From: Prolixibacter sp. NT017
GTDB taxonomy: Bacteria > Bacteroidota > Bacteroidia > Bacteroidales > Prolixibacteraceae
Length of the DNA: 64,000 nucleotides
Direction: 5' to 3'
NCBI RefSeq assembly: GCF_009617875.1
Contig: NZ_BLAV01000001.1
Location: 310,001-374,000 of the forward strand
The notes below the pieces were generated by a model. That model was given only the letters and a program-made list of their open reading frames with translations, did not search any database and was not told where the DNA came from. A program made the position numbers and the translations under genes. Positions 24,050 through 43,409 of the stretch are shown here, one piece after another. How positions within the stretch are numbered: position 1 is the first letter of the stretch; each line of letters starts with the position of its first letter.

Positions 24050-24874
24050 ATGAGATTCCAACTTACATTTCATCGTACAGGTAAGCAACGAATGTTACCC
24101 ATGGATTACCAGTATTTCATAGGAGCGTGGGTGTATAAAGTATTGAGGCGTGCTGACGGAGAATTTGCTGAGTTTCTTCATGCTGAGGGATATAAAACCG
24201 AAAAGAAACGTTTCAAGTTATTTAGTTATTCTCCTTTAGAACTGGGGCGTCCAAAAGTTTGGAAAGAGAAAGCCCTTTTTGAATTGCAGCGTGATATGCT
24301 AATTCTGAAGGTCGCCTTTCACCTGAGCGAGGCTGCAGAGAGATTCATTATCGGCCTGTTCAATCAACAGGAATTCTTCCTGGGTGACCGTTTTAACGGA
24401 ATCGACCTAACAGTGTCGGGCGTTGAACGTCTTTCGGAACCCATGGTTGCATTAAAAAGCAAATACCGGGCAACATCGCCTGTCGTAATCAGCACCTGGG
24501 AGGAAGGCGATAAATATGCACAGTACCTTTCGCCTAAGGACAAACGATACGAAGAGCTCCTGAAACAGCATCTGGTGCATAAATACGATTCAGTACCCGG
24601 GGTGGAACCTTTGCCCCATGATTTTCCTTTTCGGTTTACACTAACCAGCACTCCCAAATCGAAACTCACTACGATTAAACCTTATTCACCCGGCGAAAGC
24701 AAAGTGCGGGGCTTTAAATACCATTTCGAGCTGACAGCTCCGGCTCAGCTGCATCAATTGATTTTATCGGCCGGCATGGGCGAGAAAAATGCCACCGGCT
24801 TCGGCTGGGTGGAGCCCTCCCCGTCAGTGGTCTCAGCCCCTCACAGTGCTAAACAACCGACAAACATAAAATAA
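24050..24874 (+). CDS. cas6: CRISPR-associated endoribonuclease Cas6
   Basis: Cas6 cuts the array transcript within each repeat to give crRNAs with an 8-nt 5' handle (here ATTGAAAT). The 274-aa protein begins MRFQLTFHRTGKQRMLPMDY and has a second ferredoxin-like domain ending in the glycine-rich signature SAGMGEKNATGFGWVE. The last ~25 residues after this signature are encoded by a CCCCGTCAG-type repeat (24828-24860), so the natural stop appears to have been lost by repeat insertion. It is the first gene of the cas operon. Confidence 0.88.
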   Translation: MRFQLTFHRTGKQRMLPMDYQYFIGAWVYKVLRRADGEFAEFLHAEGYKTEKKRFKLFSYSPLELGRPKVWKEKALFELQRDMLILKVAFHLSEAAERFIIGLFNQQEFFLGDRFNGIDLTVSGVERLSEPMVALKSKYRATSPVVISTWEEGDKYAQYLSPKDKRYEELLKQHLVHKYDSVPGVEPLPHDFPFRFTLTSTPKSKLTTIKPYSPGESKVRGFKYHFELTAPAQLHQLILSAGMGEKNATGFGWVEPSPSVVSAPHSAKQPTNIK

Positions 24875-26899: not shown

Positions 26900-26932
26900 A
26901 ATAACGAAATGAAAAAATTAAAACCTCTCAAT

Positions 26933-28345
26933 ATGAAACAAACCTACAAAACCATTGACTACGAATGGCTGATAAGGCCAACAGGCGATCCGTTTGCCGA
27001 TGCCGGTGGATTTGCTATTGAATATCTTTCGAAGCGATTCCCCGAAAAGGATATTCTGGAACTGATTGACTATGTAACAAAGATCTATGTCGAGAAATGG
27101 AAGGGGAAGATTAATGCTTTCTTTCTGAATTCGAAAATCACTCAGCCGGCTTTTAAGGGTCCGAAGAAAATAGATGAGACTTTAAAATATTTTAAGGGAC
27201 TGATTAGTGAGACAGAATTGTCGGAAATTGGTTACTGCCGCATTACCGGGCGTGAAACAAAATTATTCCCTGGGGGCAGGGATAATTCGGTAATGACCGG
27301 TTCGGGCACTTTGATTAATTTTCATCATTTTTTTCAAAAAGGAATTGCGCTTTCGAGAGAGGCTCTTATTCGGATCCATTTTGTCCCATTTGCCTGTCAA
27401 CAACTACAAGGCAAGATTATGCTATTGCAAAGCAGCGAGAAAGAATTGAGTAAACTCTTTGTTAGGCATACAGTAGAACAGAATCTTCATGAGATTGGCT
27501 TGGGGCTTTCCGACGGTGTGGCTAAATCGAATTTGAATAAACCTGCCAATGCCATTTTCGGATTTGTTGATCAGGCACTTTCTCAATTGGCAAAATTTGG
27601 TGAAGGTCATGTTTTGCCTTCGCTGACCCTTTATCATTTTACTAACTTCGGTGCTACTCCGGAAATTCAATTATACCAACTCCCCGCTAATGCATTCCTG
27701 TTTTACAGAACCTGTATGCAAGCCAGATTTAGTGAAGACTGGCAGTTATTTGTACGCTCTCATTACTTTGATGGAAAACATAAAGGGGCCAGGTATAATA
27801 GTGTGTCCGGAAAATTTGAATTGGTTAAGTCAAAGGAAACCGAAATTGTCGAACCAGGAGAATACAAAAAGTGGACGAACCCTATTTACGATAAGCTTCT
27901 GAACGCGGAAAATATTCGGAGAGACATACTTCGCTGGTCACGCAAACATCCATTTAAATTTGAAATAGTATCTATTTATCAACAAAATATTATTGGTATG
28001 AAAAAAGAAACCATTGCAAAAATCAAAGAACTGGCAGCTTTTTTGGTCAGGGAAGAAGATATTGAGAAAGCTAAAAAACGGATAAAGGCACTAGACGGAG
28101 CAAAGAATGCATCTGAGTTGCGCCGTTTTCTATTAAAGCAGGCAATTTCGCCAAACTATCAGGAAGGCAATAAGAACCCGATTATCTCAGTAAATGATTA
28201 TGTGGATTATTTGTTCCCCGATGGCTCTTATTGGGCTGAAATAAGGGACATTTTATTAATTGCTGTTTATCAGGAACTCCATGAAAAGGACTTGCTATCA
28301 GATGATTTAGAACTCGAACCGGAAAATGAAGCTATTAACGAATAA
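26933..28345 (+). CDS. cas8b1: Type I-B Cascade large subunit Cas8b1/Cst1
   Basis: The 470-aa protein is the expected large subunit of Cascade, which recognises the PAM and recruits Cas3. Evidence is position (between cas6 and cas7) and similarity to the Cst1-type: TGSGTLINFHHFFQKGIALS, LYHFTNFGATPEIQLYQLP, YRTCMQARFSEDWQLFVRSH. The start at 26933 (MKQTYKTIDYEW) is preferred over 26909 because the duplicated copy at 26016 starts at the same residue. cas7 follows after 13 bp. Subtype naming is moderately certain. Confidence 0.82.
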   Translation: MKQTYKTIDYEWLIRPTGDPFADAGGFAIEYLSKRFPEKDILELIDYVTKIYVEKWKGKINAFFLNSKITQPAFKGPKKIDETLKYFKGLISETELSEIGYCRITGRETKLFPGGRDNSVMTGSGTLINFHHFFQKGIALSREALIRIHFVPFACQQLQGKIMLLQSSEKELSKLFVRHTVEQNLHEIGLGLSDGVAKSNLNKPANAIFGFVDQALSQLAKFGEGHVLPSLTLYHFTNFGATPEIQLYQLPANAFLFYRTCMQARFSEDWQLFVRSHYFDGKHKGARYNSVSGKFELVKSKETEIVEPGEYKKWTNPIYDKLLNAENIRRDILRWSRKHPFKFEIVSIYQQNIIGMKKETIAKIKELAAFLVREEDIEKAKKRIKALDGAKNASELRRFLLKQAISPNYQEGNKNPIISVNDYVDYLFPDGSYWAEIRDILLIAVYQELHEKDLLSDDLELEPENEAINE

Positions 28346-28358
28346 AATATCTCAAAGT

Positions 28359-29456
28359 ATGAAAAATATCAAAACACAAGGATTTGTATTAATCGACGTA
28401 GATGTTGTGGCATTAAATAATGCCGGGAAAAATACGCAAAGCAATAATGATAATGCAATTGCTACCAAATCAATTCGTAAAAACGGTCGTAATTATGTAT
28501 ACGTTTCTGGGCAAGCCTGGCGCTACTGGTGGCGTGAAGCTCTGCAAAAGAACGCAAAGTGGAAGTTATCTCCGATTGTTCGTGATGGAAAAATAGCCTA
28601 TACCCATGCAAATCCATTGGAATTTCCTGATGATGATGTTTTTGGCTATATGCGCGCAGCCAAAGATGCTGAATTGGATGAAAACGGTGAACCGAAAAAG
28701 GATAAAAAGGGAAATGTGAAGATGACGAATGTAACAGTAACCCGCGTTTCGCCATTAAAGAATTCGGCTATTATATCTGCGACAAGTGTAGCTCCTGCAC
28801 AAAATTGGTCAAGTATGGCCCGTCAGGAAGGGGACGCAGTTCCTTACGAGAAACAGGAGTATTCTGCAATTATGAAAGGTATGTTTAGTCTAGATCTTTC
28901 CATGGTTGGAACCTTCTCAAATTATGATAGAACCGGGTATAAGAATTTGTCGGTATTGCTACAGGAAGAAGCGCTAAAAAGCGGAGCAAAGGAAATTGAC
29001 GATCCTTTTGTTGTTGATGCAAAGGGAAAGCCGAAAAAGCTCATTCGTCTTTCGAAAGATATGCGAATACAAAGAGCCGGGGATACAATCCAGGCGCTTA
29101 AAGTCATTAACGGTGGGGCGATGCAAACGAATAACATGGGAGATGTTACTCCAAAGTTCATCATTCTGGCTACAACAACTACCGGGAATCATCCATTCAG
29201 CCACGTGGTCAGCAACCGTGGCCAGCGCGATGAAGAAATGGTATTCAATATAGATGGTTTGATTGAGGTTTTAAAAGATTACCGGGACACCTTTGAAGGG
29301 ACAGTGTTTATCGGTCGCAGAAGCGGATTTATGGATGAAATTGCAGGGCAATTGAAAAACCTCGAAACGATGACAGATATACCTAAGGTAAAAGTGTTGC
29401 CAGTAAATGAGGCGATCGATCAGTATTGTGAGCAAATGAAATCCCAGATTGACTGA
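28359..29456 (+). CDS. cas7: Type I-B Cascade backbone protein Cas7 (Cst2/DevR)
   Basis: Cas7 forms the helical backbone on the crRNA. The 365-aa protein has the DevR/Cst2 start GFVLIDVDVVALNNAGK, the SIRKNGRNYVYVSGQAWRYW signature, YEKQEYSAIMKGMFSLDLS and GNHPFSHVVSNRG. The ATG at 28359 avoids overlap with cas8 and fits the family N-terminus. It overlaps cas5 at its stop (ATGA). Confidence 0.92.
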   Translation: MKNIKTQGFVLIDVDVVALNNAGKNTQSNNDNAIATKSIRKNGRNYVYVSGQAWRYWWREALQKNAKWKLSPIVRDGKIAYTHANPLEFPDDDVFGYMRAAKDAELDENGEPKKDKKGNVKMTNVTVTRVSPLKNSAIISATSVAPAQNWSSMARQEGDAVPYEKQEYSAIMKGMFSLDLSMVGTFSNYDRTGYKNLSVLLQEEALKSGAKEIDDPFVVDAKGKPKKLIRLSKDMRIQRAGDTIQALKVINGGAMQTNNMGDVTPKFIILATTTTGNHPFSHVVSNRGQRDEEMVFNIDGLIEVLKDYRDTFEGTVFIGRRSGFMDEIAGQLKNLETMTDIPKVKVLPVNEAIDQYCEQMKSQID

Positions 29457-30115
29457 TGAAAGCATTCCGTATTAAAATAAGCTCGTGGACATCAAGCTTC
29501 AGGTATCCGAATCTAATTTCGGGTTTCCAACCGACGCTTGAAGTTCCGCCGGTGAGTACAGTAATGGGCTTAATTAATGCAGCATCGGGGAGATATTGGG
29601 AGAACAGGGAAATAACGTTGGGATACTACTTCAGCTTTAAAATAAAGACTGTTGATTTGGAAACCATTTACCAGATAAAGGCAAACGATAAGAATTATCC
29701 GGAGGCAACAGTTAAACCGAATGTTATTCAGCGCGAGTTCCTTTATGATTGTAAGTTGTTTCTTTACCTAACCAATGAAGATTTGATTGCTGCTTTCCGG
29801 CAACCTGCTTATCAACTATTATTGGGACGTAGTGGCGATTTAGCGGGAATCGAAAGCATTGAAAAGGTGGAATTGAATGAAGTAAACAATGCCCGATTTG
29901 CAGGACAGGTTGTTCCGTTTAACGGAAACTATTTGGCTGGTCAGATTCAGGCCTTGCCTAAATACTTTTCCAACACCATTCCCAGGAGAAATCTTGGGAC
30001 GGAACCGTACTCTGTTATCTCCTGCTATAATCCGGTTCAGTCACCGTTAACCGGATATCGGCCTGACTTGGAAGAATTCGATAGTGACATTTTCTTGCAT
30101 AAATTCGAAGTATGA
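29456..30115 (+). CDS. cas5: Type I-B Cascade protein Cas5
   Basis: Cas5 holds the 5' handle of the crRNA. The 219-aa protein starts KAFRIKISSWTSSFRYPNL and contains TLEVPPVSTVMGLINAASGR, the conserved Cas5 N-terminal motif, and LLLGRSGDLAGIESIEKVEL. It is translationally coupled to cas7 (ATGA at 29456) and to cas3 (4-bp overlap at 30112). Confidence 0.93.
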   Translation: MKAFRIKISSWTSSFRYPNLISGFQPTLEVPPVSTVMGLINAASGRYWENREITLGYYFSFKIKTVDLETIYQIKANDKNYPEATVKPNVIQREFLYDCKLFLYLTNEDLIAAFRQPAYQLLLGRSGDLAGIESIEKVELNEVNNARFAGQVVPFNGNYLAGQIQALPKYFSNTIPRRNLGTEPYSVISCYNPVQSPLTGYRPDLEEFDSDIFLHKFEV

Positions 30116-32397
30116 TGTTAAGCAATCAGGAGGTTCTGGCAAAATCAGAACCTCCCGTTTTACTGAAACAGCACATTGACGAATGCTTAAATGTGTACGA
30201 ATCGCTTAGAAAAGCATTTGGGCGTTTACCAGTGGGTGATTTAAACCATTTCTGGGAGCTTGTACGTTTAGGCATCGTTTTTCACGATTTGGGAAAATCG
30301 CATTTGGGATTTCAAAAAATGCTAAAAGGAAATTCCAGAGATTGGTATCATCAGCGGCATGAGTTGTTTTCAACGCCATTTATTGATCGCTTGGATTTGC
30401 TGGAAGAGGATAAATTGCTTTTGAAACTAATTGTTGCCGGGCATCACAAAGATTTCAGTTTTCTGTTTGACCATATTCAAAAGGGGTATAAAACAGGTGA
30501 AGATATATTTTCGCTAAGCGAAGACGGGAAATTGGATTGGGAGGAAGAAACTCAAAAGTTGAATGAACGATTTATCCAATCATTCCTGAAAGAATACGAT
30601 GTATCCTTGAAACCAAGTTCGCTGGCTCTACCCATGAAATTGGTAAAGGATTATACGCGCGAGCCGATTAATTCAAACAAAACGAACTTTCAGGAATTGT
30701 TATTGGCTGCCGGCGCTTTAAAACAATGCGATCATTTGGCATCGGCCGGGATTTTTAACGTAAATGTTTTAGAAGAAAGGCATTTCGATTTTTTGTATAA
30801 TACGAATTGGGCTCCTTACTCTCACCAGAAAAAAGCATCGGAAACAAACGGAGACGTCGTCCTTACTGCTCCTACCGGTTCAGGAAAAACAGAAGCTTCG
30901 TTCATGTGGCTGCACAAACAAATGAAAGAGAACGGACAAGGACGGACTTTTTATATTCTACCATTTACGGCATCAATCAATGCCATGTTTGAGCGGCTGG
31001 ATAAAAAGATGCAAGGGCATAACGAGATTGTGGGCGTCTTACACGGGAAGTTATCGGAATATATCGAGAGTAGATTCGGCGAAGAAGAATATAGTGCAAA
31101 AAACGAGAAGTTAAAGCATGAATTAAAGGAAAGTTTTCGTGCACTGGTGCCTCCTTTAAAAGTGGCAACTCCTTTTCAGTTGTTGAAATCGATATTCGGG
31201 TTAAAAGGATTTGAGAAAGGTATTTTTGAAATGGCTGGGGGCTATTTCATATTCGATGAGATTCACGCATACGACCCCGAAGTAACTGCACAAATAAAAA
31301 TACTGATTGAATTTGCTGCTCGTTTCTTGAATGTAAAGGTTTGTTTAATGACAGCTACCTTGCCAACATTTTTAAAAAAAGAGTTTGCCGAAGCTATTGG
31401 AGAATACACCGAAATCAAAGCAGATGAAGGACTTTATCAGTCGTTCACCCGTCATCGGATTAATGTTGCCGGAGGGCTGCTTTCAGAACACATTGACGAT
31501 ATTCAAAAACGGATAGATACCGGTGATAAGGTCTTGGTGGTTTGCAATACAATAAAACAAGCACAGAATATTTACAATGATTTGCATGCCTCAAAAAAAG
31601 TGTTGCTGCATAGTGCTTTTAACGGAGTTGATCGGAATAAGAAAGAAGTAGAACTGACGTCTGACGAAGTGGAACTTCTGGTTGGAACCCAGGCTATTGA
31701 AGTGAGCCTGGATATTGATTACGATGTAATTTTTACCGAACTCGCTCCACTTGATGCCTTGTTACAACGGTTTGGACGGGTTAATCGTCACCGGGTAAAC
31801 GGATATTACCGTCCGCCATGTGATTGCATTGTTTTTTCAGAACGAAATGAAGTCGACAATTACATTTATAAAAATAAGGAAGTAATAACCAGGACACTTA
31901 GTGCATTAAGGGATATTGAATCGGGTAATTCAGGGATAATCGCAGAGGATAAACTTCAATATTATATTGATAAGGTTTATCCTAGTTGGTCGGTAAAGGA
32001 TAAGGATGATTTTGACAGGGTTTACTTCAACTTAAAAATCGCGGTTGAAGAAAATCTGGCACCCTTTATTTACGATTCACACCGGGAGGAAGAGTTCGAG
32101 AAGCAATTTGATGGAGTGAAAGTATTGCCATCAATTCTTGAGAAGGAATATCGGGAATTACTTGAATCAAACCAATTCATAAAAGCTGAATCTTTAAAAG
32201 TTTCCGTTTCAAAACGGCGGTTTATGGCGCTGAGTAACGGAGATGGTATTCGTCGGAATGTATCTGCATTTCAGTTAAAGTATAAGGATGAATTGAAAGA
32301 ACAATCTTATTACATCATAGAAAGAAAATATGATTCGGAATTAGGGTTGCAATTGGATATTGAAGAAAGAATATTATCAGATGATGTTTTTATGTGA
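30112..32397 (+). CDS. cas3: CRISPR-associated helicase-nuclease Cas3
   Basis: Cas3 unwinds and degrades the target after Cascade binding. The 761-aa protein has an N-terminal HD nuclease (VFHDLGKSHLGFQ, H57-D58; VAGHHKDFSF), Walker A APTGSGKTE (~residue 253), DEIHAYDP (~382), the LMTATLPTF motif and QRFGRVNRH as motif VI. HD and helicase are fused, as in standard type I systems. No frameshift; the effector appears intact. Confidence 0.95.
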   Translation: MMLSNQEVLAKSEPPVLLKQHIDECLNVYESLRKAFGRLPVGDLNHFWELVRLGIVFHDLGKSHLGFQKMLKGNSRDWYHQRHELFSTPFIDRLDLLEEDKLLLKLIVAGHHKDFSFLFDHIQKGYKTGEDIFSLSEDGKLDWEEETQKLNERFIQSFLKEYDVSLKPSSLALPMKLVKDYTREPINSNKTNFQELLLAAGALKQCDHLASAGIFNVNVLEERHFDFLYNTNWAPYSHQKKASETNGDVVLTAPTGSGKTEASFMWLHKQMKENGQGRTFYILPFTASINAMFERLDKKMQGHNEIVGVLHGKLSEYIESRFGEEEYSAKNEKLKHELKESFRALVPPLKVATPFQLLKSIFGLKGFEKGIFEMAGGYFIFDEIHAYDPEVTAQIKILIEFAARFLNVKVCLMTATLPTFLKKEFAEAIGEYTEIKADEGLYQSFTRHRINVAGGLLSEHIDDIQKRIDTGDKVLVVCNTIKQAQNIYNDLHASKKVLLHSAFNGVDRNKKEVELTSDEVELLVGTQAIEVSLDIDYDVIFTELAPLDALLQRFGRVNRHRVNGYYRPPCDCIVFSERNEVDNYIYKNKEVITRTLSALRDIESGNSGIIAEDKLQYYIDKVYPSWSVKDKDDFDRVYFNLKIAVEENLAPFIYDSHREEEFEKQFDGVKVLPSILEKEYRELLESNQFIKAESLKVSVSKRRFMALSNGDGIRRNVSAFQLKYKDELKEQSYYIIERKYDSELGLQLDIEERILSDDVFM

Positions 32398-33171: not shown

Positions 33172-33684
33172 ATGACCATCACCGGAACCCAACTAAGTTA
33201 CTTTTTTACCTGTCACCGCAAATTGTGGCTGTTCAGTAATGGAATCAATATGGAATCGAACTCCGATTTGGTGTACGAGGGGAAATTGATTCACGAGACC
33301 AGCTATGCCCAGCGGACTGAACGCTTCAAAGAGGTGGACCTCGGCCCCGTAAAGATTGATTATTACGATACGCGCGATAAGGTTATTCATGAGGTGAAGA
33401 AATCCGACCGGTTGGAAGACACGCATGTGTGGCAGGTAAAATATTACATCTGGCTGATGGAGCAGGCAGGTATTGACGGTGTGACCGGTTTGCTGGAATA
33501 CCCCCGATTGCGACAAACGCAGGAGGTGTTGCTGAGTGAACGCGACCGGGAAGAACTGAAGAGCATTCTGACGGAAACTGAAGCCATTGCCACCGCCGAT
33601 AAATGCCCTGAGAGAATCGAACTACCCATCTGCCGGAAATGCAGCTACTACGATTTTTGTTACAGCGGAGAAGAGGGGGGATGA
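33172..33684 (+). CDS. cas4: CRISPR-associated exonuclease Cas4
   Basis: Cas4 trims prespacer ends and selects PAM-proximal fragments. The 170-aa protein has the first iron-sulfur cysteine in YFFTCHRKLW and three more in LPICRKCSYYDFCYSGE, plus RecB-like motifs DLVYEGKLIHE, KIDYYD and HEVKKSDRLEDTHVWQVKYY. It sits 55 bp after the unknown gene, behind a run of ATTCATTC-type short tandem repeats (33117-33165). Confidence 0.94.
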   Translation: MTITGTQLSYFFTCHRKLWLFSNGINMESNSDLVYEGKLIHETSYAQRTERFKEVDLGPVKIDYYDTRDKVIHEVKKSDRLEDTHVWQVKYYIWLMEQAGIDGVTGLLEYPRLRQTQEVLLSERDREELKSILTETEAIATADKCPERIELPICRKCSYYDFCYSGEEGG

Positions 33685-33754: not shown

Positions 33755-34108
33755 ATGGAAAATAGAAATGTGATAGTTGAAAAGAGTGTAGATTTTGCTC
33801 TGGCAGTAATCGAATTCAGTGAAGAATTGGAACAGCGAAATAAATATGTTATTGCCAGGCAATTGTTGCGCTCAGGAACATCAATCGGTGCAAATATTCA
33901 TGAAGCGCAGTCATCGGAAAGTAGAGTTGATTTTATTCATAAACTAAAAATAGCAGCCAAAGAGGCTTGTGAAACCGAATACTGGTTAACACTATGCGAA
34001 AAAAGTCAGCATTATCCTTCATCAAAAGAACTTTATGCGCAACTACTACCGATACAAAAGCTACTAAGCAAAATAATAAGCACCGCCAAAAATAAGCGCC
34101 CCAATTAA
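33755..34108 (+). CDS. Four-helix-bundle protein (23S rRNA intervening-sequence family)
   Basis: The 117-aa protein has the S23/IVP signature: IVEKSVDFALAVIEFSEEL, YVIARQLLRSGTSIGANIHE, SSESRVDFIHKLKIAAKEAC and ETEYWLTLCEK. These small pentameric proteins occur within 23S rRNA intervening sequences and scattered in intergenic regions; function unknown. Here the gene is wedged between cas4 and cas1 and bracketed by inverted short tandem repeats, which suggests insertion as a unit rather than a cas role. Confidence 0.88.
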   Translation: MENRNVIVEKSVDFALAVIEFSEELEQRNKYVIARQLLRSGTSIGANIHEAQSSESRVDFIHKLKIAAKEACETEYWLTLCEKSQHYPSSKELYAQLLPIQKLLSKIISTAKNKRPN

Positions 34109-34169: not shown

Positions 34170-35174
34170 ATGAAACGCACCTACTACCTATTCAATCCCG
34201 GCCGGCTGCAACGTCGTGACAATACACTGAAGTTTACGCCGTATGATGAGGACGGAAACGAACAGAAACCACGTTTTCTTCCGGTGGAGAATGTGGAAGA
34301 GCTGTACTGTTTTGGCAATCTCGATGCGAATGCTGCACTCTACAATTTCCTGGGACAGCAGCAAATTCCCATCCATTTTTTCGATTACTACGAAAATTAC
34401 ACGGGTTCGTTTATGCCGCGCGAAGCTCTTCTTTCGGGTAAGATGCTGATTGCGCAAGTTAAGGTGCAACAGAGTAAGCTGAAACGGCAGGTGATTGCCC
34501 AGAAAATTTTAACCGGAGCGGCCCATAACATGTTGAAGAACCTGCGCTATTACAACAGCCGGGGCAAAGATTTGGAGCCGATTATCGGGATAATTGAAGG
34601 ATACGCTGCCCGTATTCCTCAAACCACGGCCATCGATGAGCTGATGGGAGTGGAAGGGAACATCCGGAAAACCTATTACGAAGCCTTCGAGTTAATCATC
34701 AACGATTTTAGTATGAGCGGACGTACCTACCGGCCACCGCAAAATGAAGTGAATGCGCTGATATCGTTCGGTAACATGATGTGCTACAGCCAGGCATTGC
34801 GGGCCATTCATCAAACACAGCTTAACCCAACGGTGAGCTTTTTGCATCAGCCGGGCGACCGCCGCTTTTCTCTGTCGCTTGATTTAGCCGAGATTTTTAA
34901 GCCGTTGCTGGTCGACCGTGTTATTTTTAAACTGCTGAATAAAAAAGAGCTGCAGCCCCGTCACTTTGAAGATGCCGTTAACAGGGTGGTATTGAAACCT
35001 AACGGGAAGAAGATTTTTGTGAAAGCTTTTGAAGAGCGTTTACAGGAAACCATCAGGCATCGGACGCTGAACCGCTCGGTTAGCTATAAACATTTGGTAA
35101 AACTCGAATGCTACAAGCTGCAGAAACACATTTTGGGTATTGAAGATTATCAGCCGTTTAAGATGTGGTGGTGA
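34170..35174 (+). CDS. cas1: CRISPR integrase Cas1 (type I-B)
   Basis: Cas1 catalyses spacer integration with Cas2. The 334-aa protein begins KRTYYLFNPGRLQRRDNTLK and has the helical catalytic domain: LMGVEGNIRKTYYEAFE (catalytic Glu), NALISFGNMMCYSQALRAI, SFLHQPGDRRFSLSLDLAEIF (His and Asp). Length and motifs match type I-B Cas1. It is separated from cas4 and cas2 by four-helix-bundle insertions. Confidence 0.95.
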   Translation: MKRTYYLFNPGRLQRRDNTLKFTPYDEDGNEQKPRFLPVENVEELYCFGNLDANAALYNFLGQQQIPIHFFDYYENYTGSFMPREALLSGKMLIAQVKVQQSKLKRQVIAQKILTGAAHNMLKNLRYYNSRGKDLEPIIGIIEGYAARIPQTTAIDELMGVEGNIRKTYYEAFELIINDFSMSGRTYRPPQNEVNALISFGNMMCYSQALRAIHQTQLNPTVSFLHQPGDRRFSLSLDLAEIFKPLLVDRVIFKLLNKKELQPRHFEDAVNRVVLKPNGKKIFVKAFEERLQETIRHRTLNRSVSYKHLVKLECYKLQKHILGIEDYQPFKMWW

Positions 35175-35636: not shown

Positions 35637-35897
35637 ATGTATGTAATACTTGTATACGACATTGGGGAAAAGCGGGTAGGCAAGATGCTGAAACTTTGCC
35701 GCCGCTACCTTTGCTGGATTCAGAATTCGGTATTCGAGGGCGAAATCACCGAAGTGAAGCTCGAAGAGCTGAAAATAAGAGCGAACCGTTTGATGGAAGA
35801 TAAAGACAGTTTGATTATCTTTCGTTCACGCAATGAACGGTGGCTTGAAAAAGAGATTGTAGGCGAGGAACGTTCTTCTGTCGATAATTTCTTATAG
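35637..35897 (+). CDS. cas2: CRISPR-associated protein Cas2
   Basis: Cas2 bridges Cas1 dimers during spacer integration. The 86-aa protein starts YVILVYDIGEKRVGKMLKLC (the VYD aspartate) and continues RRYLCWIQNSVFEGEIT and IFRSRNERWLEKE. Start at ATG 35637; the longer in-frame start is within tandem repeat DNA. Last gene before the leader. Confidence 0.95.
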   Translation: MYVILVYDIGEKRVGKMLKLCRRYLCWIQNSVFEGEITEVKLEELKIRANRLMEDKDSLIIFRSRNERWLEKEIVGEERSSVDNFL

Positions 35898-36073
35898 GCT
35901 GATTTATATTGGTTTTGGTCAACTTCCAGTTGTCGGTGCCGACTAAAGCACCTGGTGGAGAGTTGACCCGAGGCCGGTGTAAAGGCCTCAACGTTCATTG
36001 ACGTATTGAAAATGTGTACACTAACTATTGTTGTCGGTTCCCCGGCGAAATTTTGTTATTGTGGGTCGACAAC

Positions 36074-36100
36074 TTGAAAGGGAAATATTACATATATTTG
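36074..36100 (+). promoter_or_regulatory. Promoter of the CRISPR array
   Basis: TTG at 36074-36076, a 16-nt spacer and TATATTTG at 36093-36100 match the Bacteroidota promoter. Transcription would start near 36107, about 44 nt before the first repeat. Confidence 0.55.
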
Positions 36101-36111
36101 AATCGCTGAAC

Positions 36112-36134
36112 CGCCTGAAAACAGGCGTTTTTTT
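36112..36134 (+). terminator. Terminator-like hairpin inside the CRISPR leader
   Basis: CGCCTG-AAAA-CAGGCG followed by seven T is a textbook intrinsic terminator. It ends 16 bp before the first repeat and lies downstream of the predicted array promoter. It could stop read-through from cas2 or attenuate array transcription. Confidence 0.6.
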
Positions 36135-36150
36135 ACGAGTCGTCGAACGG

Positions 36151-39100
36151 CTCCCAATCGCACCATACTGGAATTGAAATGCCGTTAGAGGAACATGCCG
36201 AAACGGACGGCATTACTCCCAATCGCACCATACTGGAATTGAAATTGCTTAAAAGACCTCTATCTTTGGAAACTCCTTTTGTCTCCCAATCGCACCATAC
36301 TGGAATTGAAATTAATTAAAAAAGTGAGGGATGTTCTTTCGATATTACTCCCAATCGCACCATACTGGAATTGAAATGTTGTATCAGTAGAGGAAATAAA
36401 TAGAGTTAATTCGGGCTCCCAATCGCACCATACTGGAATTGAAATAAGCATAAATAAAACCTTCCGTGTTTGCAAATGAATCTCCCAATCGCACCATACT
36501 GGAATTGAAATACCGGAGGGATTCAAGAAGAACTTCTTCAAGTTCCTCCCAATCGCACCATACTGGAATTGAAATATTTTTGAACTACGGAAAAAAAGAT
36601 TTTCGATTTTCTCCCAATCGCACCATACTGGAATTGAAATTATTCAAAAGGCCAGCTATTCGAGTCTGAAACTGCTCCCAATCGCACCATACTGGAATTG
36701 AAATTTTCAAAACGTAAAGTAGGAAAGGTATTGACAGCCTCCCAATCGCACCATACTGGAATTGAAATAAAACAAAACTATTTGATCGGTATCCATAATT
36801 CCCTGCTCCCAATCGCACCATACTGGAATTGAAATTTTTTAATAGTAATATCATTGGTATTAACAACTACTCCCAATCGCACCATACTGGAATTGAAATT
36901 TTCGTAAATCTTCATTGCACTTTCACTTCTCGTGCCTCTCCCAATCGCACCATACTGGAATTGAAATAACAATGACGGAAAGATTCAGATTGATAATGAA
37001 AATCTCCCAATCGCACCATACTGGAATTGAAATCGAGATACAAAAAATGAGAAATTGCATCCAACTCCTCCCAATCGCACCATACTGGAATTGAAATCGG
37101 AAAGAATCAATTTTTTTCTTGAATTCTTTTCTGTCACTCCCAATCGCACCATACTGGAATTGAAATAGCATTTTGAAGTGTCAGCCTGCCGTTTCTAAAC
37201 ATGCCTCCCAATCGCACCATACTGGAATTGAAATTCAGGTTCAACGGCTTCGATTTTGTCTCAAAATACACTCCCAATCGCACCATACTGGAATTGAAAT
37301 TTTATCAACGGGGGAGGCTTTATTCCTAATTGCACTCCCAATCGCACCATACTGGAATTGAAATACTTTGTAAAGTCGCTTCATTAATTCTAGGACAGAC
37401 TCCCAATCGCACCATACTGGAATTGAAATGGTTTATCCCAACACTTCATTAACGAAGTCTTCTTTCTCCCAATCGCACCATACTGGAATTGAAATCAAAA
37501 TGGTTTTCATTGAAGATTGTCCCGAATGCGCTCCCAATCGCACCATACTGGAATTGAAATACTCAAAAACCTGTCGAACTGCTTGAAAATTTGATCTCCC
37601 AATCGCACCATACTGGAATTGAAATTTATTTGAGCTACTTCCAAAACATCGCAATTTGCTCTCCCAATCGCACCATACTGGAATTGAAATAAACGAATTG
37701 CGCTTTTTTCTGAATATCCTACCAACTCCCAATCGCACCATACTGGAATTGAAATGAAAGGAAAGAATCAAGTTCGTTTGTGGTAAATAAGCTCCCAATC
37801 GCACCATACTGGAATTGAAATCTAAAACCTACTGATATAGTAGAAGGTAGAGAGCAGCTCCCAATCGCACCATACTGGAATTGAAATTCAGGAACCGGAT
37901 TACCGTTCATCGTGGCCGCATCCTCCCAATCGCACCATACTGGAATTGAAATCTGTTCAGCAATAGCCTTTGCAATGCCTGGGTAACTCCCAATCGCACC
38001 ATACTGGAATTGAAATTGCTGAAATCTTGCGATCGGTTGTTTTATTTGATCTCCCAATCGCACCATACTGGAATTGAAATAGATTTTCGGCAGCTATTAA
38101 TGTCGATCCACTACCTCCCAATCGCACCATACTGGAATTGAAATATATGAAGAAAGAATTGAGCATGTTTAGCCCATTCTCCCAATCGCACCATACTGGA
38201 ATTGAAATTTAGCAAACATTAAAAAGGAAGTTCAGCGGGTATCCTCCCAATCGCACCATACTGGAATTGAAATCGTGGTTTTAGAAACAACTTCGCTCCG
38301 GTCATGTACTCCCAATCGCACCATACTGGAATTGAAATAAAGAAAAAGGACAAGCCCCCGCAATGCTTTTGTTCTCCCAATCGCACCATACTGGAATTGA
38401 AATATAACAATATATATAGCAAAGCAGGGGCATGTTCCTCCCAATCGCACCATACTGGAATTGAAATTCCGTTATAGGGCATTTAATGAAGCCGTATAAA
38501 TACTCCCAATCGCACCATACTGGAATTGAAATGAGAAAAGCGGCGTACTTTCCGCAAAATGGTTTTCACTCCCAATCGCACCATACTGGAATTGAAATAC
38601 TCAAAAACCTGTCGAACTGCTTGAAAATTTGATCTCCCAATCGCACCATACTGGAATTGAAATTTCGAATCCTGAAGCGTTAATTCTGCTTTAACATCTC
38701 CCAATCGCACCATACTGGAATTGAAATTTGCAGTACAAGGTGGGTGTAATATAATCAAGTCCCACTCCCAATCGCACCATACTGGAATTGAAATCACCTG
38801 AGTCATCAGTCCAAAGAAGGTCGAGAACTCTCCCAATCGCACCATACTGGAATTGAAATCACTCAAACGTCACTATATACCGCTGTGTCCCGAATCTCCC
38901 AATCGCACCATACTGGAATTGAAATATGGTCTCTATCTGGAAATGGGAAAGGGAAAACCACTCCCAATCGCACCATACTGGAATTGAAATAGGCATTCGA
39001 GCGCCTGAACCCCAAGCGCCCCATCTCCCAATCGCACCATACTGGAATTGAAATCAATTATATGAACCGTTACGGCCACATCCCGGCCAACTCCCAATCG

Positions 39101-42100
39101 CACCATACTGGAATTGAAATTTTGGAGAGGAAAAATCGACGTCTTGTCCGGAGGATTCTCCCAATCGCACCATACTGGAATTGAAATATACAAGGACTTT
39201 GACAACTACGAAGCATTATACATTCTCCCAATCGCACCATACTGGAATTGAAATCAATCATCGAAACCTTCTGTTGCTTCAAATATCCTGCCTCCCAATC
39301 GCACCATACTGGAATTGAAATAAAACAAAGAGGTTTTACTGGTGGAAGCTACCAGTCTCCCAATCGCACCATACTGGAATTGAAATGGCAGTTTTGCTTT
39401 CGCTGTGCTTTACCTCTGTCTCTCCCAATCGCACCATACTGGAATTGAAATATCGGTTAATACATGCATTCTCGAATCAAAGGTTTGCTCCCAATCGCAC
39501 CATACTGGAATTGAAATTGGAAAAAGCGTCGTTAACGTCAATGTCCAGGTATTCTCCCAATCGCACCATACTGGAATTGAAATAATTGTTCGAGCCAGCG
39601 GGGCCTCGACACTTTTATCTCCCAATCGCACCATACTGGAATTGAAATACTTTACGCAAGTCTATTGAGTTTCCTGAGCAAATTCCTCCCAATCGCACCA
39701 TACTGGAATTGAAATATGGATGCGAACCCGCTTTCTAATGCTCCCTGAACTCCCAATCGCACCATACTGGAATTGAAATTAAACGCATACATCGCCTTCA
39801 GGCGTCCCAACTGGCTCCCAATCGCACCAAAGTGGAATTGAAATTAACTTTAATTTTACGTTTTGGCATTTCAATTTCTTCTCCCAATCGCACCAAAGTG
39901 GAATTGAAATACTGCATACTATATTCGAACGCACACACCAGGCCCTCCCAATCGCACCAAAGTGGAATTGAAATACAGTTCGCTCATGAACTTGTCGAGC
40001 TCGTCGATGCCAACTCCCAATCGCACCAAAGTGGAATTGAAATGCATAATTAAGCCAGTCTATTGAAAGATTTAATGTTCCCTCCCAATCGCACCAAAGT
40101 GGAATTGAAATGAACAACCTGCTCCTGTTTCGCTTTTTTCGGCCCGGGCTCCCAATCGCACCAAAGTGGAATTGAAATCTGTTGGCAGTGCTACCACGTT
40201 GACAGCAACGGTATCTCCCAATCGCACCAAAGTGGAATTGAAATTTCCAGAATACCTTTATCAATCATGCGTTGCACATCGCTCCCAATCGCACCAAAGT
40301 GGAATTGAAATTTGATTATTTGGTAATTTACTATAGAACTTTTCAACACCTCCCAATCGCACCAAAGTGGAATTGAAATTTTGTATGGTCGACCACGGCA
40401 TTAGTGCTGTAATACTCCCAATCGCACCAAAGTGGAATTGAAATATAATATCTGTTCTCCTGAAATTTGAATCAGGGAAGCTCCCAATCGCACCAAAGTG
40501 GAATTGAAATAGCGCATACATCGGTTCTCCAGCCGCATCGCCATTGTCTCCCAATCGCACCAAAGTGGAATTGAAATACTTGATCATGCAGTAAACATCA
40601 TAGGCCGAACCGGCTCCCAATCGCACCAAAGTGGAATTGAAATTTACAGCTTTATCCACTAGTTCACCGTCACCCCAGGCTCCCAATCGCACCAAAGTGG
40701 AATTGAAATTGAGTTGATATACAAATGTGTATAAAAGTGAAAGGTCTCCCAATCGCACCAAAGTGGAATTGAAATAGGTAAAAGGCATTCCTAATCCTGT
40801 CCTCAGTTCCTCCCAATCGCACCAAAGTGGAATTGAAATATGCAATGAAGGGAAGGAGAGCACACCCAACGTGCCCTCCCAATCGCACCAAAGTGGAATT
40901 GAAATTGGTTTGAAGGCTTCGTGGTCAGGTTGGCCGAAAAGCTCCCAATCGCACCAAAGTGGAATTGAAATAAGTTTATTCCCGGCAGAAGCTGCTTGTG
41001 AAACAATCTCCCAATCGCACCAAAGTGGAATTGAAATATCAATCTTATTCCTACTAGTATTACGGATATACTTCTCCCAATCGCACCAAAGTGGAATTGA
41101 AATTCACGTTCACGAATGAAGAGAATGAAATCATTCGTCTCCCAATCGCACCAAAGTGGAATTGAAATTTATTCCCGTCGTTGAACACAAAACCATCCTT
41201 GTTCTCCCAATCGCACCAAAGTGGAATTGAAATGGTGATACATGCATCGATAACCTACCTGGTGCCATCCCTCCCAATCGCACCAAAGTGGAATTGAAAT
41301 TGATCCAGAAGTACTCTGATGTTTCTCCTGTGAACTCCCAATCGCACCAAAGTGGAATTGAAATTAGGGACGATTAATTACATCGAGTTTCAGTATTCGA
41401 CTCCCAATCGCACCAAAGTGGAATTGAAATTCGATGAAACGCTGCGATTCGTTTTCGATTTCGACGCTCCCAATCGCACCATACTGGAATTGAAATTAAG
41501 AACAATGCAGTTTCGCCGAAAGCGGTTGAAACTCCCAATCGCACCATACTGGAATTGAAATACTGTCAACATTGCGTAGTGCAATCCCATACGAGACTCC
41601 CAATCGCACCATACTGGAATTGAAATAAGCGTAAAGACGATGAGCAAGGTCATGTGTTTCTCTCCCAATCGCACCATACTGGAATTGAAATGTGTAATTT
41701 ACCTGCTCGGCATTCTGGGCAGTAACCCTCCCAATCGCACCATACTGGAATTGAAATCGGTGACCAACGACTCCATTTATTTACATTCGATCTCCCAATC
41801 GCACCATACTGGAATTGAAATTTCAGTTGATCAACCTGTATAAACTCACCACTATTCCTCCCAATCGCACCATACTGGAATTGAAATATACAACGGTTTG
41901 CGAAGATGCTCACTTCTGTTACCTCCCAATCGCACCATACTGGAATTGAAATTTGAAAGAAGTTGTTCATCTTATCAACGTGTGAACCGCTCCCAATCGC
42001 ACCATACTGGAATTGAAATCAGGAAATAGTGGTGAAGGGTAAAAAGGATATGCCCTCCCAATCGCACCATACTGGAATTGAAATTGGTAAACGAACGCAG

Positions 42101-42328
42101 AAAACATAAAAAGAGAAACTCCCAATCGCACCATACTGGAATTGAAATTAATACCGTCAACCCATACCATGATAGGCTTTGTACTCCCAATCGCACCATA
42201 CTGGAAAGCCTTTAGGCTTCGCGACCGGGTGGTGTTACGGATGTGCGAGGGAGCAATTGAAATGAACCAGATTGCTTCACTGTCGTTCGCAATGACACCT
42301 CCCAGTCGTACTATGTTGGAATTGAAAT
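36151..42328 (+). CRISPR. Type I-B CRISPR array, 92 intact repeats plus decayed distal units
   Basis: The repeat is 30 bp, starting CTCCCAATCG and ending GGAATTGAAAT; the last 8 nt ATTGAAAT fit the crRNA 5' handle of type I-B. By direct reading I count 92 intact repeats (first 36151-36180, last 42119-42148) and 92 spacers of 34-39 bp, mostly 35-36. A 93rd repeat (42184) is interrupted and a degenerate one lies at 42299-42328. Repeats 1-56 and 82-92 carry CACCATACTGG; repeats 57-81 carry CACCAAAGTGG. The spacer at 37561-37595 is identical to that at 38599-38633. Orientation is set by the leader, cas2 and repeat direction. Confidence 0.98.
39815..41430 (+). repeat. Sub-array of 25 variant repeats within the CRISPR array
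   Basis: All repeats from 39815 to 41430 read CACCAAAGTGG in place of CACCATACTGG (two substitutions, T to A and C to G). Boundaries are sharp on both sides: 39750-39779 and 41467-41496 are standard. Confidence 0.95.
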
Positions 42329-42516
42329 AATGTAGGAGAAACTACGCCGGACAAATCGCTCATCTCCGAGCGTACCAATCCCGAAGTGTCGGGAGGAAAG
42401 CCTTCAGGTTTCGCGACCGGGTTGCGTTTCGGTTGTGGTAGGGAGCAATTGAAATAGGAAATTGCTTTACTGCCGTTCGCAATGACAACTTCTAATCGTA
42501 CCAATGTGGAATTAGT
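42203..42516 (+). repeat. Repeated element in the decayed distal end of the array
   Basis: Two ~120-bp copies (42203-42328 and 42395-42516) share GGAAAGCCTT, TTCGCGACCGGGT, GGGAGCAATTGAAAT and GTTCGCAATGACA. Each is followed by a degenerate CRISPR repeat (CCCAGTCGTACTATGTTGG and TTCTAATCGTACCAATGTGG). The first copy splits the 93rd repeat after CTGGAA. A hairpin TCCCGA-AGTG-TCGGGA precedes the second. No gene is seen in 42517-42764. Confidence 0.75.
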
Positions 42517-42764: not shown

Positions 42765-43409
42765 CTACCGTCGGGTTGTTGTTTTCTTCCTTCGTTGTCT
42801 GGCCATATAAATCGTTGCAATGACAAAGATGGGTACTTTGGTAAATAATAGGATAAAGGCGAGTACGGGGAAAAAGAAGGACAGCACGACTGCAATAACT
42901 CCGTTTATTATATCCAGTTGACACATAATTTGAAAACGTCTTCTGACTTCATCACTGATGCTGTCTTCATTTGAGAAGTTTTCCCGCATCATCGCGTATT
43001 CCCAAATAAAGAATTGGACGAGCGTTATCAATAAAATATTCAGACTATAGAGGAAAATGGCCGGGCTGTTGCTAAAATGCAAGCTCAGTACGGTGGTCGA
43101 GAAGGGAAGTGTGACGATGAAAAACAACCACATGATATGTAACGTGAGAAGTCTGTCGTCCATCTTGTGGATGTAGGCAAAGAAATCGTGATGGGTTTTC
43201 CAAAATCCAGCTATATTGATAAAGGATAATGTAAAGGCAAGGATACTCTTCCAGGGAAGCACCAAGTCTGTAAATGTCAGGTCCTCGGTCGCAGGCACAT
43301 CCAGTTTGAGGTTCAGCGCAAGTATAGTAATCGCAATAGCTACGATGGCATCACCAAAAAATAATACTCGCTCGAAAGCGATTTCTTTTTTGAACGAGCT
43401 CTTTTTCAT
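42765..43409 (-). CDS. TMEM175-family (DUF1211) potassium channel-like membrane protein
   Basis: The 214-aa protein starts with ERVLFFGDAIVAIAITILAL, the TMEM175 pore-helix signature (FSD-like motif, here FGD), and has about six hydrophobic segments. Bacterial TMEM175 proteins form K+-permeable channels. It is the first gene beyond the CRISPR array, on the opposite strand. The C-terminus is basic (RQRRKKTTTRR). Confidence 0.82.
   Translation of the reverse strand: MKKSSFKKEIAFERVLFFGDAIVAIAITILALNLKLDVPATEDLTFTDLVLPWKSILAFTLSFINIAGFWKTHHDFFAYIHKMDDRLLTLHIMWLFFIVTLPFSTTVLSLHFSNSPAIFLYSLNILLITLVQFFIWEYAMMRENFSNEDSISDEVRRRFQIMCQLDIINGVIAVVLSFFFPVLAFILLFTKVPIFVIATIYMARQRRKKTTTRR

Follow-up and report, generated by a model that had tools for sequence, protein, structure and literature searches.

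Repeated capture from a phage lineage as a probable origin of a duplicated spacer and its overlapping neighbors in a type I-B CRISPR array of Prolixibacter

The CRISPR array of Prolixibacter sp. NT017 holds one spacer twice, and each copy has on its leader side one of two spacers whose protospacers overlap. This arrangement raises the question of whether the array took up DNA repeatedly from the same target, as the original prediction proposed, or whether it arose in some other way. We favor repeated capture from a phage lineage at CCN sites as the explanation of both pairs, with a probability of about 0.75.

The array and its cas locus

The array was analyzed in a window of 64,000 nucleotides (the whole stretch of DNA under study, whose positions are used throughout), which contains the following components:

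24050..24874, forward strand: cas6 (NCBIfam/PADLOC profile matches)
26909..28345, forward strand: cas8b (PADLOC Cas8b, E 1.8e-25)
28326..29456, forward strand: cas7 (Cst2/DevR)
29456..30115, forward strand: cas5b
30112..32397, forward strand: cas3 (helicase with HD nuclease)
33172..33684, forward strand: cas4 (Cas4b)
34170..35174, forward strand: cas1 (type I-B)
35640..35897, forward strand: cas2
35898..36150, forward strand: presumed leader, 253 nt, between cas2 and the first repeat
36151..42183, forward strand: CRISPR array, 92 spacers, 30-nt repeat CTCCCAATCGCACCATACTGGAATTGAAAT, with AAG replacing TAC in units 57-81

The cas genes lie upstream of the array on the same strand, and one locus encodes Cas8b, Cas7 (Cst2/DevR), Cas5b, Cas3, Cas6, Cas4, Cas1b, and Cas2 (NCBIfam, PADLOC, and Pfam profiles), the gene set of a type I-B system; for cas8b the NCBIfam and Pfam profiles gave no match, and PADLOC is the sole support. 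The array adjoins cas2, and its repeats of about 30 nt end in ATTGAAA(T/C), an ending typical of type I-B. Spacers are 34-39 nt long (n = 92; tolerant repeat search of the window), and a search for the repeat at up to three mismatches gave 92 matches in the whole genome (a single contig of 5.14 Mb), equal to the number in this array. Since the cas2 side is intact, while the far end runs out in a truncated repeat (42184) followed by degenerate ones, we infer that the array grows from the leader side and that low-numbered spacers are the newest.

Several other features of the locus were recorded. At 39815-41430, 25 successive repeats (units 57-81) carry AAG for TAC, with TAC repeats on both sides; this double change, which later reverts, suggests an exchange with another array; the sister species (genome G003) uses the AAG form. 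The truncated and degenerate repeats at 42184-42513 lie inside a unit of about 190 nt that is present twice, perhaps a decayed old array end mixed with another repeat element. Between cas4 and cas1 (33755-34108) there is a gene of the 23S rRNA intervening-sequence protein family (PF05635), and a gene with a TMEM175 potassium channel domain adjoins the array (42765-43409, reverse strand).

A duplicated spacer beside overlapping neighbors

Four spacers make up the arrangement in question:

37496..37530, forward strand: spacer 21, protospacer overlapping that of spacer 37 by 14 nt; 5′ flank CCG
37561..37595, forward strand: spacer 22, identical to spacer 38; methyltransferase motif TQKPVELLENL
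38533..38568, forward strand: spacer 37, overlapping spacer 21
38599..38633, forward strand: spacer 38, presumably the older copy of spacer 22

Our parse of the array confirmed that spacers 22 and 38 are identical (35/35 nt, with the coordinates correct) and that, as had been predicted, the first 14 nt of spacer 21 are the last 14 nt of spacer 37 on the same strand; the union of the two is 57 nt long and shows ...TTTCCG as the 5′ flank of the spacer 21 protospacer. All other pairs among the 92 spacers share stretches of at most 12 nt on either strand, and a shared 14-mer on either strand arose in a fraction of 0.0275 of 2000 first-order Markov simulations of such a spacer set. When one duplicate and one overlapping pair were placed randomly (permutation), the overlapping pair fell on the same side of both duplicate copies with a chance of 0.0006, or on either side with a chance of 0.001.

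Exact same-strand duplicates, some of them adjacent, are found in 7 of 29 other array entries (L165, L169, L170, L180, L185, L187, and L194; some are metagenome bins), so duplication as such is not rare, and these duplicates suggest that recombination can make them; an offset overlap is found in one of the 29 (L175). The array of the sister species, whose cas1 is 96% identical and which has the same system and repeat family, is a further source of comparison (L159; of its 286 repeats, 285 are identical, and T at position 11 and the AAG form set them apart from the repeats studied here). It contains three collinear block duplications (231-237 with 259-265; 214-217 with 238 and 241-243; 154/157/158 with 190-192), which we read as recombination, so the 22/38 duplicate alone could have this origin too. 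In the same array, the 64th repeat interval from the leader side holds a 1008-nt stretch in the place of a spacer, possibly a mobile element inside the array.

If spacer 22 were a recombination copy of repeat-spacer unit 38, the adjoining overlap of spacers 21 and 37 would be a coincidence. Such copying fits the block duplications and exact duplicates just described, and is favored by repeats 1-56, which are all identical in the array parse. We consider it improbable, however, because a copied block would have brought spacer 37 along, whereas spacer 21 is a different, shifted capture; spacers 23 and 39, on the other side of each copy, also differ from each other; and the overlapping pair stands beside both copies, with the chance of 0.0006 given above. 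The sister array also speaks against it. We tabulated 15 same-register pairs outside its blocks (pairs 165/248 and 202/247 left out): two are fully identical, two differ in length only, and 11 have point changes. As the repeats of this array are almost without drift, separate captures are the simplest account of the 13 differing pairs (11 sites), and independent recapture appears to be common in this type I-B system. Most of these recaptured copies show point changes or another length, in contrast to the identical spacers 22 and 38. Identical pairs such as 22/38 are ambiguous alone, but neither of the shifted neighbors 21 and 37 can be a copy of the other, which leaves at least two captures from one target region. 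This part of the original prediction is supported; that the 57-nt site and the duplicate lie in one genome is a presumption, the 57-nt site having been found nowhere in the searches described below. That capture and not recombination made spacer 22 is our inference from the arrangement as a whole.

A phage methyltransferase gene and its CCN flanks

Exact protospacers were sought for the duplicated spacer and the 57-nt site. Spacer 22 had no exact match in IMG/VR or in genome contigs; the first 25 nt of spacer 21 had none in IMG/VR; and back-translated patterns of three readings of the 57-nt site (KWFSLKIVPNA, FIEDCPEC, and IFNENHFA) had none each in IMG/VR. At up to three mismatches, spacer 21 was found in 1 of 393 genomes of the order, its own. 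The whole array matched 21 phage records, none of them at spacers 21, 22, 37, or 38, and four plasmid records, whose best places among the matches listed are elsewhere than these four spacers (two multi-piece plasmid matches are probably CRISPR repeats); for any spacer, the phage and plasmid collections gave near matches at most. Compared with 53 pieces of 24 phage contigs, the 57-nt site had 23/57 mismatches at best, and a translated score of 40 vs. controls of up to 43. Since the 57-nt site was found nowhere in these searches, the placing of 21/37 and 22/38 in the same phage draws on their adjacency.

A target could be assigned to the duplicated spacer, by near and translated matches. Its frame-1 reading is TQKPVELLENL, which we take to be a DNA methyltransferase motif. 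The back-translated pattern of this peptide led to two IMG/VR contigs with 5/35 and 6/35 mismatches (flanks CCG and CCT), and the matched gene encodes a 265-aa PF01555 protein, in which spacer peptides align in frame on phage contigs; these alignments place the duplicated spacer at HP-TQKPVELLENL, a motif of a phage N6/N4 DNA methyltransferase. We kept 80 IMG/VR methyltransferase loci and scanned all 92 spacers against them, which added three spacers to the same gene:

37034..37067, forward strand: spacer 14, same methyltransferase gene as 22/38, RDTKNEKLHPT; site overlapping that of spacer 22 by 4 nt
38081..38114, forward strand: spacer 30, same gene, opposite strand, SGSTLIAAEN
38339..38373, forward strand: spacer 34, same gene, KEKGQAPAMLL; 4/35 mismatches to contig L027

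The best mismatches in the 80 loci were 4/35 for spacer 34, 5/34 for spacer 14, 5/35 for spacer 22/38, and 5/34 for spacer 30, and the reversed-spacer controls (n = 92) reached 24% mismatch at the lowest and 29% next (on whole contigs, the three lowest of 93 were 24, 26, and 29%). Nucleotide matches of spacers 3, 7, 24, 36, 57, and 77 were dropped, having nine mismatches (25-26%), near the lowest control. A translated comparison of 1416 stretches from 33 array entries with 42 of the 80 genes (4751 peptides; one 1008-nt insert was skipped, and 79 spacers of L195/L196 repeat those of G016) gave scores of 59 for spacer 14, 54 for spacers 22 and 38, and 51 for spacers 30 and 34, against 44 for the best reversed control. 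Spacers 131, 183, and 152 of the sister array scored 65, 56, and 51, and the best score in the other arrays (44, spacer 65 of L187) equaled the best reversed control.

On the L027 gene, spacer 34 maps to 247-281, spacer 14 to 502-535, spacer 22/38 to 532-566, and spacer 30 to 614-647 on the other strand, so that the four sites span about 400 nt of one gene on both strands. Spacers 14, 30, and 34 are thus near the 22/38 site by homology; 21/37 has no place on this map, and proximity covers the methyltransferase sites only. The sites of spacers 14 and 22 overlap by 4 nt in this mapping: spacer 14 is the sole spacer among the 92 that ends in ACTC, with which spacer 22 begins, but four shared letters alone are meaningless, and the putative overlap is taken from the homology. 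The mismatches to L027 are 4/35 for spacer 34, 8/34 for spacer 14, 9/35 for spacer 22, and 6 for spacer 30; with so many at the sites of spacers 22 and 14, L027 is only a relative of the target phage. Contig G042 (L108, the record of L027) encodes a primase/helicase, this methyltransferase, a terminase, and head proteins, which makes the methyltransferase a phage gene. A target in the host genome was set aside for spacers 21, 22, and 37, since the best-scoring own-genome match outside the array has 9/35 mismatches to spacer 22, a GTC flank, and no methyltransferase motif in frame, and since a search with the methyltransferase matched one of four genomes of the genus (G003, distantly, with 46% identity over 86 residues; none in G000).

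The predicted CCN PAM is supported: CCN lies 5′ of all six sites used, namely those of spacers 14, 22, 30, and 34 in L027, that of spacer 21, and that of spacer 28 (CCA; see below). The four distinct methyltransferase sites in L027 have CCG (spacer 14), CCT (22), CCT (30), and CCA (34), at a CC background of about 0.036 of positions in the phage contigs; the CCG flank of spacer 21 is read from the overlapping spacer 37, and a CCA flank of spacer 22 can be read from spacer 14, if both come from the same allele. Across aligned loci (best placement, up to 12 mismatches), CCN was found at 70/70 for spacer 22, 28/34 for spacer 34, 39/60 for spacer 14, and 13/65 for spacer 30; the last has a TTN flank in 47/65 loci, and its support for CCN across homologues is weaker. 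Spacer 46 was not counted as a PAM site (11/37 mismatches, flank GAA). In the sister array, the overlaps among its own spacers give TCA and TCG flanks (93/143 and 45/58), and the L027 flank at the site of its spacer 131 is TCA, so the PAM there may be YCN. In the type I-B system of Clostridioides difficile, CCN is reported as the acquisition PAM, 5′ as here, and YCN as the interference PAM (PMC8406132), and a survey gives 11 PAMs for type I-B, CCN included (PMC8482600). C. difficile belongs to another phylum, and in Prolixibacter the PAM is derived from overlapping spacers and homologous phage genes.

At the L027 methyltransferase sites, the CC of the PAM occupies bases 1-2 of a proline codon or, on the other strand, pairs with a glycine codon (3 CC, 1 GG), so no synonymous change can remove these PAMs. 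The chance of such a codon-fixed arrangement is 0.023, in a test made after seeing the data and biased towards conserved motifs. Among the 120 protein relatives listed (7999 scored), proline precedes the best match in 120/120 for spacer 22, 107 for spacer 34, and 82 for spacer 14, and glycine (GR) follows the spacer 30 peptide in 68; the best of these relatives (P0015) differs from the spacer-encoded peptides in 3/44 residues. Neither for codon-fixed PAMs nor for this bacterial family did a search of part of the open-access literature give a paper, and we do not claim their absence from print.

Methyltransferases of other kinds appear as well. One further spacer matches a different gene:

37953..37986, forward strand: spacer 28, different phage DNA methyltransferase (phrog_757; no match in Pfam), 5/34 mismatches, flank CCA

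This match is a Desulfofustis phage methyltransferase, and spacer 34 also matches methyltransferase genes of Lactococcus and Streptococcus phages (flanks CCA and CCG). Spacers 28, 40 (38728-38764), and 46 (39121-39157) resemble methyltransferase-type peptides of other families. Spacers 40 and 46 were left out of the target assignment (translated scores 57 and 42, reversed controls up to 45; no clean nucleotide match), and spacers 72, 78, and 47 (52, 49, and 47, slightly above the same controls) were set aside, as their frames are not interpretable. Phage methyltransferases may be a frequent target, or merely the best conserved one.

This abundance bears on the possibility that a common methyltransferase gene was sampled by naive captures, independent of one another, in many unrelated phages, without a single lineage behind the spacers. 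The gene is indeed very common (methyltransferase relatives make up 583 of the 600 candidate stretches among the matches listed), and a separate methyltransferase family, in another phage, is the source of spacer 28. On the other hand, five methyltransferase spacers fall within 25 array positions (14-38) and one gene of about 800 nt, for which the chance is 0.015; their peptides are close to one allele (P0015); and 22/38 is repeatedly paired with 21/37. We therefore regard many unrelated phages as an unlikely source.

Repeated capture from one phage lineage would instead proceed as follows. Spacers would be taken next to CCN, and since the PAM sets the start of a spacer, the HP|TQKPVELLENL site of the phage N6/N4 methyltransferase gene would be taken twice in identical register, as spacer 38 and later as spacer 22. 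After each of these, the next spacer inserted would come from a second site, as spacer 37 and later spacer 21, with starts 22 nt apart; further captures from the same methyltransferase gene, on both strands, would have given spacers 34, 30, and 14. The time order is presumed from array position, and 21/37 would lie in the same phage as the methyltransferase site; since the methyltransferase is widespread in phages, the captures may have come from more than one phage.

Within this explanation, interference or priming by older spacers may have helped later captures: spacer 38, and later spacers 34 and 30, would have led Cas3 to the phage and so driven captures nearby. On both strands the sites lie within about 400 nt of each other, and this clustering, like the presumed temporal order of the spacers, is consistent with the mechanism, to which we give somewhat less than even odds, because naive hot spots could produce the same order and clustering. 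A precedent is the type I-F system of Pectobacterium atrosepticum, in which new spacers cluster round the targeted protospacer in a positive feedback (PMC5059440); interference-driven acquisition was shown there experimentally, whereas here, in type I-B, it is read from order and clustering.

Recapture in the sister species

The sister array resembles the array studied here not only in its repeat family and recaptured sites, but also in having two spacers at the equivalent methyltransferase motif. Spacers 152 and 183 have their first base at the place in the TQKP motif that is equivalent to the start of spacer 22, and position 1 alone distinguishes the two. At the DNA level both are distant from L027 (14 and 13 mismatches over 36 nt), and their peptide, TQKPVPLLKRLI, matches L033 in 11/12 residues; since TQKP is common to several methyltransferases, their target may be another methyltransferase. 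In C. difficile, interference is reported to be weaker when the first protospacer position is altered (PMC8406132), so spacer 152 may, by analogy, be the recapture of an escape mutant.

We counted where recaptured versions differ, using 11 of 14 near-identical pairs (36/60 and 249/251, redundant, and 165/248, too diverged, were out, as was 202/247, an offset pair shifted by one and not among the 14; in two groups, pairs share a member). Among 22 differences over the 11 pairs, 4 are at position 1 (p 0.002), 8 at positions 1-3 (p ~0.0001), and 10 at positions 1-8 (p 0.011), all p values being uncorrected over five cut-offs. Without position 1 the excess is weaker: 4/18 at positions 2-3 (p 0.014), 5/18 at 2-5 (p 0.042), 6/18 at 2-8 (p 0.13), and 9/18 at 2-10 (p 0.022). 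That the recaptured versions differ mostly near the PAM is as expected if escape mutants were captured anew. Together with the codon-fixed PAMs of the methyltransferase sites, it is the ground for a speculative and rather doubtful proposal, that CRISPR memory in this genus follows escaping phages at sites where the PAM is hard to lose.

Repeat capture, clustering, and CCN are already known and are ordinary behavior of these immune systems; the record in the sister species is a more interesting lead than the 22/38 finding itself. Even without the exact phage, the Prolixibacter array discloses some of its PAM and target, and successive captures from one phage gene are preserved in it in order. 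Together with the sister species it forms a natural record of recapture, perhaps after escape, which would open the question whether type I-B systems refresh their memories at sites where mutation is not easy for the phage.
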